64,000 nucleotides of DNA from Gamsiella multidivaricata (taxonomy: Eukaryota; Mortierellomycota; Mortierellomycetes; Mortierellales; Mortierellaceae). The notes under the pieces were generated by a model. It had not been told where the DNA came from. It saw nothing but the letters and a program-made list of their open reading frames with translations, and did no database searches. The translations under genes and the position numbers were made by a program. This document shows, piece after piece, positions 11,674 through 36,910 of this stretch. How positions within the stretch are numbered: position 1 is the stretch's first letter; the number at the start of each line of letters is the position of its first letter. Where the stretch lies: NCBI RefSeq assembly GCF_025024155.1, contig NW_026251804.1, positions 54,155-118,154 of the forward strand, in the 5' to 3' direction.

Positions 11674-13725
11674 CTAGCGACGTCCCCTTAATTTATTGGT
11701 TGTTAGCTCTGAGGCTGCCTTCAAGATGCTATTAGGTTGTGGCGGGGGTAAGGACAATATGTTCGAAGAAAAAGATCTGGAGGAAGCGAGCGATGCCAGC
11801 CATCCCACAGGGGTCCCGCGTGTGAGACGCATGTTATCTTTGAAGGAGAGGCGTCCTTGCTTATCCTGAATAGAGACTAGGTCGAGGAGCTCTTTGTCTG
11901 ACCATTTGGTTTTTGTGCAGTGGTGTTGCAGGAGAGAGATCCAGGCTTGGCGCTTGGATGGGCAGAGCACAACATAGTGATCCAAGTCTTCCACGGATTC
12001 ATGGCACACTGGGCACATGGGGAGAAAAGTTACTCGGGGCCAGTTTGTGAGGCGAAAGCTCGCATGAGGAAGTGACTCTTGGAGATATCGCCACCAGAGA
12101 TTACGGCCCTGCGTTGGTAGAGCCTTCTTCCAGAACTTGGACCATTGAGCCGGCATTCCCTCAGATTTGTCCTTGTGGAAGGGGAGCTGTGCGAAGCGTC
12201 GGAAGTCCCCTGTGGTGGCCTGAGCGAAGGAGGTCGTGGGCACGTTTATGTCCGCGGTCGGCAAAAGGATGTTGGTCATGCGGCGACGTAGAGACTGGGT
12301 GTATAAATCCACGAGGCTTGGCCGTGCTGTTGCCAGAACTGGTAGGCTATATTGAGAGACATCGGAGCTTGTGGCAAGGGGCTGTCCGTGAGGTGGGTCG
12401 AGACAGAGGCTTCTGCGAGCTTGCGCGCAGTGGTGAAGAGGCGGTGCAAGAGACGAATGGACCTTGTGCAGGACCATGTTGCCTTCCTGTCCAAGCAAAG
12501 CAGGGGCGTCAGCGGATTAGGCGCATTGGCGTAGTGCTGGAGGAGACAGCCGAGGATCTTGCGTCCCATCGAGGGCTTTTCAGATGTCATGTTCTGTAGA
12601 TACCTGAGGAGGAGAGCGTCCAGTTGTCTCTCGGGATCATCGATTCCTAGACCGAGGCTGGGGCTGGCTTGGACCGCATGATAAAGGTCTTGGTGACGCG
12701 TCTAACCTTGGTGAGGAACCAGCGAGGAGGGGGAATCACCCAAATAACGCGCCACAATGTTGTGAGGGCAAAGGAGTTGACCACCAATGTCTTACCCTTC
12801 ACCGACAGTGGCCGTTGGGAGTGAATCGCCAAGCAGGACTGAATCTTCTAAAGGCGTGTCTGAAAGAACCCCTCGACCTGCTCTGGGCAGATGGGCACCG
12901 GGTATCCAAGGTATCGAAGAGGTTGCGGTTTGTTGGTCAGTGGGTCTTTGGTGTATTCATCATGCCATCCGATGTTGTCAGCTGCGATTGCCTCGCGCAA
13001 CTCTTGATTGGGAGCCTTGGTGAGTGGAAAGGCTACCGTCTTTTCGGGGTTGAGGATGCCGTTGGTTGCATTCGAGTATGTCGCGAAAACGGACTTGGCT
13101 CGATTCGATTCGCTCTTATTGCGCAGGATTAGCAAAATGTCGTCAGCGTAGGCGAGCTCCTTGATCGGGTGGTGGAGACGGGGGATTGTGATGCCGCTTA
13201 TCTCGTCGTTTTGCATGATAGTGCGGAGGAGAGGCTCGAGAGCGATGTTAAAGAGCAGTGGTGATAGTGGATCTCCTTGACGAACTCCGCGACATTGTTG
13301 TATTGGTTTCGACAAGTGGCCGTTGATGTTGGTCCTTATTTTGGTCTGGAAGAAGAGGCGCTGGATGAGAGTTCTGAAAGCCTCCAAAAAGCTCATCCGT
13401 TCCATTGTGGCCAGGAGGTGGTCTGGGTGGACACAGTCGTATGCTTTTTCCATGTCCAGAAGAAGACCAATCTCCTGTCCGCCTTCCTCCCGTGAATGGT
13501 CTATCAGGGCGTAAAGAGCGAGGCCATTATCGGCAATGAAGCGTCCTGCCATGAATACTGTCTGGTAGGGCGTGATGACCTTGGGGAGGATTTTGATGAA
13601 TATCTTGACGTCGCAGTTGATCAAAGAGATCGGTCACCAGTTCTTCAGGTTCTTCCGCTCGTCTTTCTTGTACAACAGGATTCGAATGCCTTTTTTTTTA
13701 GCTCCCTAATCGATCGCGGTCTCTA
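11674..13725 (-). mobile_element. 5'-truncated, broken LINE (non-LTR retrotransposon)
   Basis: Reverse-transcriptase motifs in the minus frame 13624-12848: LLLDMEKAYDCVHPDHLL, GVRQGDPLSPLLFN, the catalytic ELAYADDILLIL (YADD box) and a PLRYLGYPV thumb block. The frame continues to 12647 past an in-frame stop. A shifted frame (12498-11674) carries the C-terminal zinc-binding reverse-transcriptase tail, C-P-V-C followed by H and C. At 13636-13634 a TGA stands where the conserved NW-R-PISL arginine is expected. No endonuclease domain is found upstream, so the copy is 5'-truncated. An A/C/A homopolymer block at 11672-11646 (minus sense) fits a degenerate 3' tail. Dead copy. Confidence 0.9.
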
Positions 13726-30697: not shown

Positions 30698-30775
30698 GAT
30701 TCTCGCCGGTGATGGTCACCGGTGAACAAAGACCAGTGAAATCCGGCGAAATCCAGTGAAACCCAGTGGTTTTTG
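30698..30775. repeat. left end of the Fanzor element: TIR and sub-terminal repeats
   Basis: GATTCTCGCCGGTGA is followed by TCACCGGTGAACAAAGACCA and three diverged AAATCCAGTG-type units. The same order, TCACCGGTGA-RCAAAGACCAGTG plus decamers, is found in direct orientation at 34044-34115. Confidence 0.75.
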
Positions 30776-31730: not shown

Positions 31731-32312
31731 TTAAGGATGTCTAGTCGCAGTAGGTCCTCCGCTCTTGGATGACACCAACAACGAGAGGTCTGCTTGTTCT
31801 TGTGTAACCAAAGACCACGCACGCTTGTTGTTCAAAGGCTCATGAATCTGTGGGCCAACCTGGAGGGCCGTCGGGATCACGCCGGCGTTTTCTTCCTCGA
31901 GCATGCTTTCGAGCCCGTTGAAGTGCGCAGAGAACTCGCCCTCGTCCTGTGGAGGAGTAGCAGTAGGCTGACATGGGAGAACGGAGACTGGAGCAGTAGC
32001 CACTTGGGATGGACTCTCAGCATCTGTGGGGGCAATAGCCGCTTGGAGTGGAATGTCAGCATCTGCGGCGGCACAACGGACAGACACTGCGGGGGCACAA
32101 GGGGCACGCGTTGCGGAAGTGGAGTTGGGAGCTGTGTTCATAGCAGTGATTCTGTTCACCTTTGTCGCGTTATGTTTGATCATACGTCGCTCTGTCAAGC
32201 GCGGTGGGTGCTCTGGGTCGTTCTCGTAGGAGGCAGGAGAGAGGACGATTGACAGAATGCATAGGAACATGCAGAAGTAGAGATCAGAGAATCTGAACGC
32301 GTTGTCGCTCAT
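31731..32312 (-). CDS. unknown ORF inside the Fanzor element
   Basis: A 193-codon ATG-started frame downstream of the Fanzor. It begins with a hydrophobic stretch (LYFCMFLCILSIVLS) that could be a signal or TM segment, followed by a Thr/Ala/Pro-rich polar region and SLVTQEQADLSLL near the end. No family is recognised. It is the longest intact frame in the element and may be accessory cargo or a fortuitous frame. Beyond 31731 the same strand is full of stops. Confidence 0.35.
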   Translation of the reverse strand: MSDNAFRFSDLYFCMFLCILSIVLSPASYENDPEHPPRLTERRMIKHNATKVNRITAMNTAPNSTSATRAPCAPAVSVRCAAADADIPLQAAIAPTDAESPSQVATAPVSVLPCQPTATPPQDEGEFSAHFNGLESMLEEENAGVIPTALQVGPQIHEPLNNKRAWSLVTQEQADLSLLVSSKSGGPTATRHP

Positions 32313-32561
32313 GGTGTTGGTCAGGGCTAGTTAGCGATGGTCAGGGCTAGTTACCTTTATTGACGCGTTCCCCCTAAGATATGGTAGCGGTGGCGTAGCG
32401 TTATTTCCCACGTGGCGCGGCTCGTGCAGAATTCTCTGCATCCTGACAGCAGTCACAGGACGCGCAGGAGTAAGAGTGCTGCCTCAGAAAAAAATAGTGT
32501 CTGCCATGGAGGCTGCTCGCCTGCGCCCACCAGCTCGCCCTTGCCCTTGCACCACCTCATT

Positions 32562-32565
32562 ACTG

Positions 32566-32627
<62 letters not shown>

Positions 32628-32645
32628 GCTGCTGCTGCCGCTGCT
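32562..32645. repeat. (CTA)n/(CTG)n trinucleotide repeat
   Basis: About 20 CTA units flanked by CTG/CCG triplets. It falls in the C-terminal tail frame of the Fanzor pseudogene, where it reads as an Ala run then a Val run, and in another frame as poly-Ser. An expansion in what was coding sequence. Confidence 0.9.
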
Positions 32646-32659
32646 GCTTCCGGTTTCGT

Positions 32660-34020
32660 GTGCGGCCTTGCATTTTGCTGCATCCAAGGGTAGTTCCCTT
32701 TTTCATCCACTGGCTGGAGATATAATGGTCGCTCTTAATGGAGTAAATGGCTACAAATGACATTGTATATGTTGTGGCCAGCCATGACATCGCGATGCAT
32801 GAGTGTCTTGCAGTTCGAGCAATATAATCTACAAACTTCTTGCAGGCTGGGCACCTCTTGGACATATAGGACCCGTTCACTCCAACCACGATGTAACCGG
32901 GGGACTTGGCCTAGAGCACATCAACACAAAGTCAAAGTTAATAAAAACATAAAACGATTTTACGCGACTTCGGATCTCCGGCGATAGTATCCTTACCTTC
33001 TGAACAAAGTATGACTGGAAGAACTCATGCAAAGACGAAAGTCTCGTCTTGATTGAAAACTTGCCCAAACGGATATCAATAACAACCTAGTTGGCTTCAT
33101 CTCTCTTCCTGCCGACCGATCGGCCAAGTACCTTGATTAGACGCTTCGCGATAAGCCTGTACTATTCATCCCGTGCCCTTCTTACGCCCCACTTATGCTT
33201 CTTGAACCGGTTGTTGCCGTTGTAAAACTCATTCGGTCGTCCCTGTACTTTCTCCAGTTCCGTAAGATAGCTCGCCAAGCTGGTTCCCTCACCACGTTGT
33301 GGTTGCAGCCTAGTCTCGATGCCGCTGGTGGATTCTATTCCGTCGCCTCGGATGATCCCTTTTTGCTCTTCCATCCACCGTCGGTGCTTGAAGGCTGACT
33401 GGTAAACGGCTTTCTGCTTCGCAGCCAAGTTGTAATAGGTGGCGGGAGCGGAGCCTGTGATGTATTGACCACATTATCTTGCTTATATAAAGTGCCTCAT
33501 TTCTCTGAATCCGCCACCACTCGGTGCTGATTCTTTATTAAGAGCACTGTGCCTCTGGGATTACCTCCTATATCTCCAGTCTCCTATACTAGATGAGTTT
33601 ATAGCTATTCCCTAGTATATAAAGCACGATCTGTCATTATTAAAAGAGCACCTCGTTTTTCACAGATCTATCGTCCCCACATACTCCGCAAAGCCTAGCG
33701 TTGGAGCAGGGGCTGGATTTGGACTTTCGCAAGGGCCCTCCATATCGACCTCGATACCAGAGTCACCTTGCTCCCTCACTGTGATATCGCGAGTCCCTTT
33801 ATCATGAGCATTCTTGGGGAGTAGCGTAATTGCTCCGAGTACACATGCCTGGCCGAGGTCGAGACCTAGGACCTTAATCTGTCCCGGCTCACAACCCCAA
33901 AGATCTTCGACATCCTGCCTAATCTCTACAACGTTTCGAACCTTAGTCCATGCCTCCGACGGTGGATGTGGTTCGATGAGGCAGGGCGTCCTGTAGAAAG
34001 TGCCTATATCTAACCGACTG
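32660..34020 (-). pseudogene. Fanzor (eukaryotic TnpB-like RNA-guided nuclease), inactivated
   Basis: Fanzors are RuvC-type nucleases guided by an RNA from their own transposon. Pieces read on the minus strand: RuvC-I IKVLGLDLGQACVLGAI with the expected D-x-G (about 33860); KAVYQSAFKHRRWMEEQKG (about 33400); FYNGNNRFKKHKW (about 33220); GKFSIKTRLSSLHEFFQSYF (33068-33000). A GTAAGG...CTCTAG intron (32996-32911) follows, then VVGVNGSYMSKRCPACKKF. Here the family's RuvC-II Glu (VNE-Y-TS) is Gly. After a frameshift come the second zinc Cys pair and RuvC-III, YCSNCKTLMHRDVMAGHN (about 32825-32770), and the usual ending RPLYLQPVDEKGNYPWM. In-frame stops are at 33162-33164, 33087-33089 and near 32741. 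Sequence between 33660 and 33430 does not fit the family and may be an insertion. The N-terminal lobe is missing or unrecognisable. Confidence 0.82.
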
Positions 34021-34043
34021 AAGCTCTTCCAAGGCTACTGATT

Positions 34044-34207
34044 TTCACCGGTGAGCAAAGACCAGTGAAATCCAGTGAAATCCAGTGAAATCCAGTGAAA
34101 TTCGGTGAAATACAGTGATATAGAAGACTCCATCATGTGTGGAATTCACCGGTGAAAAGACCCAAAAAAAATTATTTACCGCGGTTAATCGTTCACCGGT
34201 GAGAATC
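34044..34207. repeat. right end of the Fanzor element: TIR and sub-terminal repeats
   Basis: Three copies of TCACCGGTGA (about 34044, 34155 and 34193) plus a run of four or five AAATCCAGTG-type decamers at 34063-34115. The outermost copy, with GAGAATC, mirrors the left border. CACCGGTG is a perfect palindrome, a plausible binding site for the mobilising protein. Confidence 0.75.
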
Positions 34208-34682: not shown

Positions 34683-36910
34683 CAGTCCTTTTTGTGAAAT
34701 AGCCGAACTTTCATAGTAAAAGTTGGGCTATTTCGACTGAATTGAAATATATACACGAGGCTATTCATTTTTTGCAAGGATTTAAGGGATCACATGATGA
34801 GTTTATTTCTGGTAAGATTTACGGATCAAGTACCGTGCTGTTTTTCGGTAGCTCGCGTTCTCATCTCCAAGCAACTCAACCACCATCGTCGCCAAATCCG
34901 ATTCATGCCTGGACTTGAACGATTCGACAGCCTCTGCCTCGACGGAAGAACTCCTCTCTCGCAGGCCGCACCTCTTGGCGATCTTGTTGCGCACTTTCTG
35001 CCTAATCTCCTCTGCTATATCTTGTGCGTCCTTTTGGTCCTTATCGAGGGAGAAGTGAATCCTGTCCCCGTCCATAACTGAAGCAATCAATCGTACATAA
35101 TGCCCCTTGATTTGACTTGTATCCGTGTCCACCACGGGTGGATACAGTGGTGTTTGCTCCTCCACATCTATTGCTTCCTGCTCTAGCTTGTCATTTTGCG
35201 CCTTTGAGAGGACCCCCGCTTTGCAAAAACAATGCCTCACAGTTGCGGCCTTGATATGCGACCACACGTACGGAATAAGTGACCATGCCTCGCTGTTGGT
35301 AATCTTCTCCCCGATGGCGTACTCCTTTGTGATTGCTTTGTTGCTGAGCATCTCGAGGTATTGTCGTTTGAATACACTGATTATGCCTTGGTCCAAAGGT
35401 TGGGTAACGGATGTTGAATTGGGTGGCAGGCGCTCGATCTGAAGATGTCTCCATGTCTCTCCTGCAAGTGGATCGTTGCCACTAGAGTTGCCGCGTCTAG
35501 GGTTGCCGTGTGCTCCACATGAGTCGATAAGTAGAAGACTCCTATTGGTAAGGCTGTCATCTAGAGCGTGAAGCCATGCTTTGAAAAGATCCATGATCAT
35601 GTATCCATTTCCATGTCTTATTGAGGTAATAGGGAGCTCAGGGCATGGCTGGATACGTCGAGCAAGATGCGCGCCTAAAATAATAAGCAAAGGGATGGGA
35701 TAATTAGTTTCTAATTTATTTTTTTCTCTTAGAATAATAATGCGGCACGTTCGAGCACCTACCTATGACTAGCGGTCTCAAAGTCACTATCGTTGCTGCT
35801 CGGGCAAGCGAAGATCCAGTGACGTTGACACAGAAGAGAATCGACACTCGATTCCCGGCTCCCCGCTCTGGTTTGACACCGCTCGTAAGCTCCTCCGTAG
35901 TGTACGAGTGAGTGGAGAACTCCCTAAGGTACATGCCAGTCTCATCGCAGTTGTAGATGTCGTCGGGCTCGAAGTCAGAGCATATCTTGTAGATTTCGTC
36001 CATCCTTCCCGCAATCGCGTCTTTGTCGACAGATCCCGCTTCTCCTTTGAGACTGCAGTAGGCGACACTATACTCCTGCGTCATTCTCGAGCGCCACGCT
36101 GCCGTAAACGAGACTGTTTGACCGAGAGGAATATCATCGGGTTCACAAATGTCGTCCATGAGAATGTGAAAAATGGAGTTGGCTGCAGCCTGGAGTTGAC
36201 GGCCACTGACAATGCCGTTGCTCTTTCGAGCCTCCAACAACCACTCATAGACAGTCTTGTCCAAGATGTTTTGTACCAAGTCGACTGGATTGCTGGATAG
36301 CGTACATTTGTCGCCTCGACCATGCGCCACATCAAACTGGATTTTGTCGAAATCCATGTTCCATTTTGCGATCGACTTTCCTGGGATTGGCAGCCCCACA
36401 GACCTATGAAAATTGTTTGCTGTAACTCTCTTCTGGGGTTTATCGACGTTGATAGTTTCCTTGAGGTAACGAAAGATCTCAACCAGCTCCATCCGATGCC
36501 TCAAAGTGTATCCTTCGCCCCTATGGAGTTTTGAATAGGTAGGTTGTGGAGGTTGTTGAGGATGTTGGGGTTGCTGAGGTTGGTTTGCGATGGATTTGTT
36601 GGTTCGAGCCCGTGCTGCAGCCAACAGCGCATGATACTGCAGCGCACGCGCTTCATCCGTTTGTGTGGAGGCCCCGTTATGGAGCAAGGCCTCGCGAACG
36701 AGTGGGATGTCGTTTGTTTTTTGGCATATGGGAAAAAAGTGAGAATGAGAATGACACGCATTTTTGATGTAGTCATGAGCGTAAAGATTGCAGGGAAATA
36801 ATGTATTTCAGCCATCACAAAAAAATGAATAGCCTCGTGTATATATTTCAATTCAGTCGAAATAGCCCAACTTTTACTATGAAAGTTCGGCTATTTCACA
36901 AAAAGGACTG
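34683..36910 (-). mobile_element. pogo-like DNA transposon with perfect TIRs
   Basis: The element starts CAGTCCTTTTTGTGAAATAG at 34683 and ends with the exact complement at 36910. The two inverted repeats (34683-34773 and 36820-36910) are identical over 91 bp by direct comparison. A TA dinucleotide flanks each side (34681-34682, 36911-36912), the target duplication of Tc1/mariner and pogo elements. One transposase gene lies inside on the minus strand. Perfect repeats and target site indicate recent insertion. Confidence 0.93.
34803..36492 (-). CDS. pogo/Tigger-type DDE transposase
   Basis: Two exons, 36492-35763 and 35674-34803, with an 88-nt GTAGGT...TTTTAG intron; they join in frame to 533 aa. 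The N-terminal part resembles the helix-turn-helix region of CENP-B/pogo proteins. The DDE catalytic core is present: first D in IYNCDETGMYLREF, second in SLLLIDSCGAHGN, third in LPPNSTSVTQPLDQGIISVF. Then comes the usual C-terminal segment HIKAATVRHCFCKAGVL. The frame is open a further 65+ codons upstream (to beyond 36687) but with no ATG. The start MELVEIF at 36492 is the first in-frame ATG, while an out-of-frame ATG near 36726 opens MPKNKRHPTRSRGLAP-stop and could supply the true N-terminus if a 1-nt frameshift separates them. Confidence 0.85.

Follow-up and report, generated by a model that had tools for sequence, protein, structure and literature searches.

This locus raises the question of what kind of gene left a broken series of RNA-guided nuclease motifs on the minus strand of a fungal contig, and what such a gene looks like where more of it survives. 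The locus lies in the window, that is, the whole stretch of 64,000 nucleotides analysed here (C177:54155-118154 of the 37.5-Mb, 180-contig assembly of Gamsiella multidivaricata), for which an earlier note had proposed a decayed Fanzor in a fungal transposon. As judged from sequence comparison, the copy in the window is a dead Fanzor1-like remnant, and it is probable that the fuller members of its family represent one gene in which a nuclease of the XPG type is fused to a Fanzor1. The remnant comprises the following features.

32684..34026, minus strand: decayed, 5'-truncated Fanzor1-like nuclease, with the end of the WED region, RuvC-I, the RuvC-II region, zinc ribbon, RuvC-III and the RPLYLQPVD block
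33866-33849, minus strand: RuvC-I motif GLDLGQ, with the catalytic Asp kept and D-Leu-G, not DPG
about 33,453-33,691, no strand assigned: ~240-bp multi-copy repeat insert splitting the RuvC part; ends estimated, copies of 80-88% elsewhere in the genome
32997..33107, minus strand: RuvC-II region (VVIDIRLGKF) and end of the pre-intron exon, with a stop in front
32996-32911, minus strand: spliceosomal intron of exactly 86 nt, GT-AG (GTAAGG...CTCTAG)
32910-32842, minus strand: alternative-Glu site NGSYMS and first CxxC of the zinc ribbon (AKSPGYIVVGVNGSYMSKRCPAC)
32827-32771, minus strand: second CxxC and RuvC-III HRDVMAGHN (LYCSNCKTLMHRDVMAGHN), in the other reading frame
within 32755-32705, minus strand: RPLYLQPVD block

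All the motifs that had previously been read on this strand (RuvC-I, the zinc-finger Cys pairs, RuvC-III and the RPLYLQPVD block) are present, and the intron, placed correctly before, is found at the same position in relatives. A conceptual translation of the remnant, in which the intron is omitted and the insert and stops are written as X, matches the Fanzor zinc-ribbon profile PF07282 with 37.5 bits (E = 2.7e-9; cut-off 26.3), and the RuvC exon of a relative matches positions 33443-32997 (E = 2.2e-40); on these matches, the similarity to Fanzor is not due to chance. Past a trinucleotide run (32,561-32,638) that splits the C-terminus, the similarity is weaker and reaches about 32509 (minus strand). 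The profile search suggested in the earlier note is thus positive for the read-through, but the window copy is missing from the six-frame PF07282 results for the genome, as its zinc ribbon is spread over two frames. That the sequence is instead an unrelated zinc-finger transposase or contamination by a bacterial TnpB has a negligible probability: only the zinc ribbon of the read-through reaches a curated Pfam profile and its PDB matches are weak, but no other transposase family gives a better Pfam match, a spliceosomal intron is present, the alternative-Glu layout and a TDG motif are seen in the relatives, more than 100 matches are spread across a fungal genome, and no relative was found in a prokaryote genome collection by pattern search and tblastn, which reach close relatives only. 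The fungal origin of the DNA is borne out by PF00172 (Zn2Cys6), which we take to be a fungal domain, with 28 matches in this genome and none in 14 control genomes, those named being bacteria and archaea, a comparison that does not extend to other eukaryotes.

The damage to the window copy goes beyond the stops and the single frameshift reported before. The copy begins inside the protein at ELQSVRYR (34026), so that the N-terminal part of fuller relatives is missing; it contains three in-frame stops, two before the intron and one before the RPLYLQPVD block, and at least two frame changes, near 33,943 and between 32,842 and 32,827; no clear terminal inverted repeat was found for the ~240-bp insert. 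The alternative catalytic Glu, located six residues before the zinc finger, is Gly in this copy; relatives read NEYYTS or NESYTF, and the closest ones, L021 and L022, keep the Glu (NESYTF). The claimed change of Glu to Gly at RuvC-II stands if this alternative Glu is meant; 30 of 37 aligned rows have Gly in the canonical RuvC-II slot, and, Gly being normal there, only the loss of the alternative Glu is a real defect. By all these signs, the window copy is dead and does nothing itself.

Further copies, for which a search of the genome had been proposed, turned out to be numerous. The PF07282 search yielded at least 109 zinc-ribbon matches, 104 of them over the cut-off, and a RuvC-exon query 120 stretches; the family analysis covers this one genome, and intactness was judged from the copies read. 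In the family of locus L051 (C93, C121, C62, C12, C140, C33, C111, C131, C98 and C88), identity to the C93 query is 96-99% wherever sequence remains. The 472-residue RuvC exon of this family is open in six of the ten copies, has one TGA in two and is in pieces in two, and the family's 3' end falls on the same base in 6 of 6 loci compared, with unrelated DNA beyond each. The query copy of a second family is C96. Both of its ends are matched to within 5 bp by C47 and C166; the copies at C94 and C124 begin 95 bp further in, the one at C129 runs into a contig end, and at C148 there is a 3' fragment. By the ends shared among copies, the C96 element is 4,646 bp long. The genome therefore contains young copies that are almost identical, end sharply and have unrelated flanks. 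Both families have a terminal hairpin (z -2.4 and -3.9 against shuffles), which would be compatible with a guide RNA made from the right end, as in SpuFz1 (PMC10432273), but also with other kinds of terminal hairpin.

A LINE-like 5' truncation of the L051 family, with a common 3' end and varied 5' ends, was considered and rejected. Much of the variation is explained by assembly gaps, because five of the ten copies (C140, C62, C33, C12 and C111) reach a contig end; the C131 copy breaks off, by eye, at an inserted transposase-bearing element, and the ends of C98, C88 and C121 were left out of this comparison. Copies of the 3' part only of the young families are found at C148:682347-682738 (99%) and C126:733779-734137 (97%) and resemble the 'ghost' guide-RNA loci reported for SpuFz1. 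A diverged Fanzor, L042 (C106:152800-157300), has a long open frame with one stop and no DNA-level similarity to the three loci compared; it is possibly an old lone gene.

The elements contain more than a Fanzor. Pfam scans of three stretches of the C96 element brought up three profiles, XPG_I, Pox_G5 and the Fanzor zinc ribbon, with no transposase among them; the first two fall in an open stretch upstream of the Fanzor (XPG_I 23.8 bits, just under the cut-off; Pox_G5 1.3e-5, below the cut-off). The XPG_I profile PF00867 finds nine places in the genome, four strong and five weak: the strong ones are presumably the host's own repair nucleases, and each of the five weak ones is followed on the same strand, 2.97-3.15 kb downstream, by a Fanzor zinc ribbon. 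Five Fanzor-linked loci score 25.5-26.6 bits against PF00867 (cut-off 24.9), and another conceptual XPG read-through scores 17.6 with XPG_I and 23.1 with XPG_I_2 (cut-off 24.2), both below. With a family-specific XPG query, 131 stretches in 100 clusters were found, and in 71 of these clusters a Fanzor match follows on the same strand at a distance of up to 6 kb when all 109 zinc-ribbon and all 120 RuvC rows are used. The corresponding controls gave 4 clusters (opposite strand downstream), 5 (same strand upstream) and 5 (strand flipped), and shifts by 20, 40 and 80 kb either way gave 0, 1, 0, 1, 2 and 1; an earlier count with 34 hand-picked RuvC rows of the 120 had given the same 71 of 100 with slightly lower controls. 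The median distance between XPG and zinc ribbon is 2,965 bp (57 clusters), and 57 of the 109 zinc-ribbon matches have an XPG match upstream within 6 kb.

The acidic residues of the nuclease site (D39, E167, D169, D186, D188 and D236) are invariant in five families and are equated, by motif, with active-site residues of FEN1/EXO1; in the [YV]-x-DG block, four of the five families have the D, the fifth, L044, being frameshifted there. The MG-I/L-type start and the XPG-I region are also those of FEN1/EXO1/XPG 5' nucleases, and the predicted structure of the XPG exon resembles the EXO1/FEN1 fold; solved structures among its top fold matches share 12-18% identity with it. On the strength of the model and the motifs, the N-terminal part is a predicted 5' nuclease of the FEN1/EXO1/XPG type with an EXO1/FEN1-like fold; unlike those enzymes, it is part of a mobile-element gene with a Fanzor. 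The XPG parts are 38-44% identical between families, and the association with Fanzor is kept. Diverged XPG-like frames of about 330-470 codons (24-27% identity; C113, C44, C57, C170, C134 and C1:1022410) have no Fanzor match nearby; they may be stand-alone relatives, or they may be partners of Fanzors that have diverged beyond recognition.

In-frame joining of the two parts was tested at six loci, with L039 left out since its exon-2 peptide was not found. At five of these (L051, L041, L043, L045 and L046, from four families), removal of a phase-2 GT-AG intron (89-102 nt) puts XPG exon 2 in frame with a linker exon, and in L051 the joined exons 1b-2-3 form 639 codons without a stop. The linker exon contains a conserved M-x-x-[YF]-x-x-KP-[YFW]-K motif, and conserved residues precede any Met common to the families. 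The fuller gene would comprise about five exons and roughly 1,300-1,400 codons, with the XPG nuclease in exons 1-2, the linker and an acidic Fanzor N-terminal region in exon 3, WED-REC-RuvC in exon 4, and the zinc ribbon and RuvC-III in exon 5. Between L045 and L046, dN/dS is 0.22 for XPG (166 codons), 0.19 for the linker (155), 0.14 for the RuvC exon (260) and 0.08 for the zinc-ribbon exon (85); between L045 and L040, it is 0.30 for the linker (75 codons), 0.15 for the RuvC exon (276) and 0.09 for the zinc-ribbon exon (73). One between-family comparison thus indicates purifying selection on XPG, linker and Fanzor alike, a signal that appears to predate the decay because the copies compared are themselves broken.

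An arrangement of XPG and Fanzor as two genes of one element, in tandem or alternatively spliced, rather than a fused protein is improbable. The same intron phase and an in-frame join recur at five loci from four families, and the conserved residues lie ahead of any Met shared in exon 3. It is the case that, unspliced, the XPG frame of four families meets a stop at the same 5' splice site, that of intron 2, and an unspliced transcript could yield a free XPG protein; however, the TAA comes automatically with a phase-2 intron that begins GTAA, and L044, with GTACG, has no stop at this place. The decayed L044 is also the one locus among the six at which the obvious splice sites give no in-frame join.

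Together with this stop and with L044, several observations weigh against the fusion gene. Among the XPG clusters, 29 of 100 have no Fanzor match nearby, and 52 of the 109 zinc-ribbon matches have no XPG match within 6 kb upstream, although fragments and contig ends may explain some of the unpaired matches on either side; in the DNA read, no XPG part was found at E 1e-3 for the window copy, L021, L022 or L032. The predicted structure of the XPG exon is of middling confidence (pLDDT 61.6, pTM 0.53), PDB sequence matches of the XPG part are weak, and the prediction for exon 4 is unusable for a fold search (pLDDT 37.8). Outside the comparisons given above, dN/dS is uninformative (L045-L041 saturated; L041-L043 with too few changes). 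Finally, none of the copies read is intact over the whole gene, L051 having a frameshift in exon 1; the active relatives expected elsewhere in the genome thus find partial support in the young copies and the six open RuvC exons, but not in an apparently complete gene.

The family agrees with published definitions of Fanzors in some features and departs from them in others. Motifs were counted over aligned rows, namely tblastn stretches from the window and 32 loci, with near-identical copies included and L008 dropped as a duplicate. The alternative Glu six residues before the zinc finger, a Fanzor feature (PMC10711439), is E in 30 of 36 rows (otherwise S in 3, R in 1, K in 1 and G in 1, the last being the window); the RuvC-III Asp is present in 32 of 36; and TDG in the WED region, characteristic of Fanzor1 (PMC10711439), is found in 21 of 27, the window copy being truncated just after its place. 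The alternative Glu kept in relatives and the TDG counts, along with the PF07282 match, uphold the original assignment to Fanzor. The TnpB-family motif D-X(125,275)-[TS][TS]-X-X-C4-X(5,50)-RD (PMC3627910) is matched by relatives such as L051 (D...TSKKC..C...C..C..HRD), and the window copy departs from its [TS][TS] detail with MS instead. DPG at RuvC-I, near exclusive in Fanzors (PMC10711439), occurs in none of the 30 readable rows (DLG 18, DAG 7, DFG 2, DIG 1, DRG 1, DLD 1); D-hydrophobic-G with the alternative Glu is described as a separate clade of TnpB-family homologues (PMC10711439). With Fanzor1 (SpuFz1, GtFz1 and PpFz1; PMC10432273, PMC11423790, PMC10711439) the family shares the RuvC-I Asp, the alternative Glu before a C4 zinc finger, the RuvC-III Asp, TDG, a structured right end of the element, and the nature of a eukaryotic gene, introns being present in some Fanzor1 genes (PMC3627910). 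In contrast to Fanzor1, RuvC-I here is D-Leu/Ala/Phe/Ile-G, mostly followed by Gln, a FEN1/EXO1-type nuclease is present at the N-terminus, and the gene has about 1,300-1,400 codons, compared with 600-700 residues for most Fanzor1 proteins (PMC11423790) and up to about 800 for some (PMC10711439). Given this size and the lack of DPG, the family is a variant of Fanzor and not a typical member.

An XPG-Fanzor1 fusion was not found described in the openly licensed literature searched: XPG does not appear in the main texts of PMC10711439, PMC10432273, PMC11423790, PMC3627910, PMC8778642, PMC10799480 and PMC6338049; nothing was found pairing Fanzor with Mortierella, Fanzor with XPG, or TnpB fused to XPG; and publications linking Fanzor to a flap endonuclease or FEN1 mention no fusion in the excerpts available.

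How might such an element spread? RNA from its right end would guide RuvC to cut the matching empty site, the 5' nuclease would trim or resect the cut ends, and repair would copy the element in. SpuFz1 leaves 5' overhangs (PMC10432273), a possible FEN1/EXO1-type substrate, which makes a 5' nuclease partner mechanistically sensible. Compared with the working model in which RNA-guided cutting of the empty site promotes copying, no TnpA-like transposase was recognised here and the element carries its own 5' nuclease. By eye, no terminal inverted repeat or target duplication was seen at the ends of the C96 element (L041-type), a lack also reported for some known Fanzors. The IS1595 transposase profile PF12762, an uninformative choice, gave no match. 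That the fused nucleases constitute a self-contained cut-and-resect homing machine, spreading without a transposase, is a tentative proposal and rather unlikely as it stands.

The XPG module could instead be captured cargo with no role in the spread of the element. At L029 and L031, the XPG start lies directly beside the RuvC end, as in internal-deletion derivatives, which favours cargo, as do the zinc-ribbon matches without XPG nearby; the invariant acidic residues, the XPG dN/dS of 0.22 and an association kept between families with such diverged XPG parts argue to the contrary, and we give this alternative little credence. Still less probable, and indeed quite doubtful, is an origin as debris of integrated giant viruses carrying FEN-type nucleases and Fanzors. 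Among viral proteins, the fold of the XPG model is matched best by flap nucleases of giant viruses (best E 1e-6), the Pox_G5 match points the same way, and Fanzors occur in large DNA viruses (PMC3627910), but the introns at conserved positions and the repeated copies with sharp ends do not fit, and a viral collection contained no relative of the RuvC or XPG exon by pattern search and tblastn, which reach close relatives only.

The surroundings of the window copy suggest how it came to its present place. Its nearest relatives, two Fanzor-bearing loci on C33 and C11, match the window DNA at 83% and share ~1.4 kb downstream of the remnant, including a conserved open reading frame (ORF). As the copy is 5'-truncated and this downstream flank is common to the nearest relatives, an already truncated Fanzor was probably carried by segmental duplication, the ORF (31731-32312, minus strand) being co-duplicated. 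No element ends were found for the window copy, and its placement in a fungal transposon is the weak part of the earlier note. The ORF is a fragment from a small gene family (437 codons in L021) characterised by a single hydrophobic stretch and a tail rich in Ser and Pro, and it has no Pfam family above cut-off. As part of the element it was rejected: the family is low-copy (C33, C143, C11, C177 and C102, plus weaker matches), and besides its copies next to Fanzor pieces (C33, C11, C177 and C102) there is one at C143.

A further feature is located 2.6 kb downstream of the Fanzor remnant.

30105-29773, minus strand: decayed FEN1/XPG-type nuclease piece, found by tblastn, of the kind joined to Fanzor elsewhere in the genome

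With the L051 query, this piece gives 3e-9 by tblastn against the window alone and E 2.4e-4 against the whole genome, and residues resembling the second exon and the linker continue, by eye, to about 29300. Both halves of the XPG-Fanzor system have thus left traces in the window, though not as one element; the earlier note had overlooked the linked nuclease. A 59-bp stretch rich in TTTCACTGGA and CACCGGTGAA occurs with 90% identity at 34039-34097 and 30710-30768, once upstream of the Fanzor remnant and once upstream of the XPG piece, and parts of it recur in L021 and L022.

The window also holds RhoGEF, Sec23 and F-box stretches. The Tc5/pogo-type transposon adjoining the Fanzor remnant (34803-36687, minus strand; DDE_1, 3.8e-16, and HTH_Tnp_Tc5, 1e-4, in two frames) is a separate element; on C131, an intron of the XPG-Fanzor copy (L050) contains a transposase-like frame that, by eye, resembles it. 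Non-LTR retrotransposon remains, including a reverse transcriptase, are found at 11674-13624 (minus strand; RVT_1, 3.7e-27, and zf-RVT, 1e-8).

The missing DPG suggests that the published Fanzor fingerprint does not hold in every fungus. The role of Fanzors for hosts or transposons is considered open (PMC10432273), and a Fanzor tied to a 5' flap nuclease or exonuclease suggests a function in directing the repair that follows cutting. The XPG-Fanzor combination could explain how such elements copy themselves, and with the fusion, a single protein would suffice to test the cut-and-copy idea directly. Such a fusion would, in addition, set a natural precedent for coupling an RNA-guided nuclease to an end-resecting enzyme.
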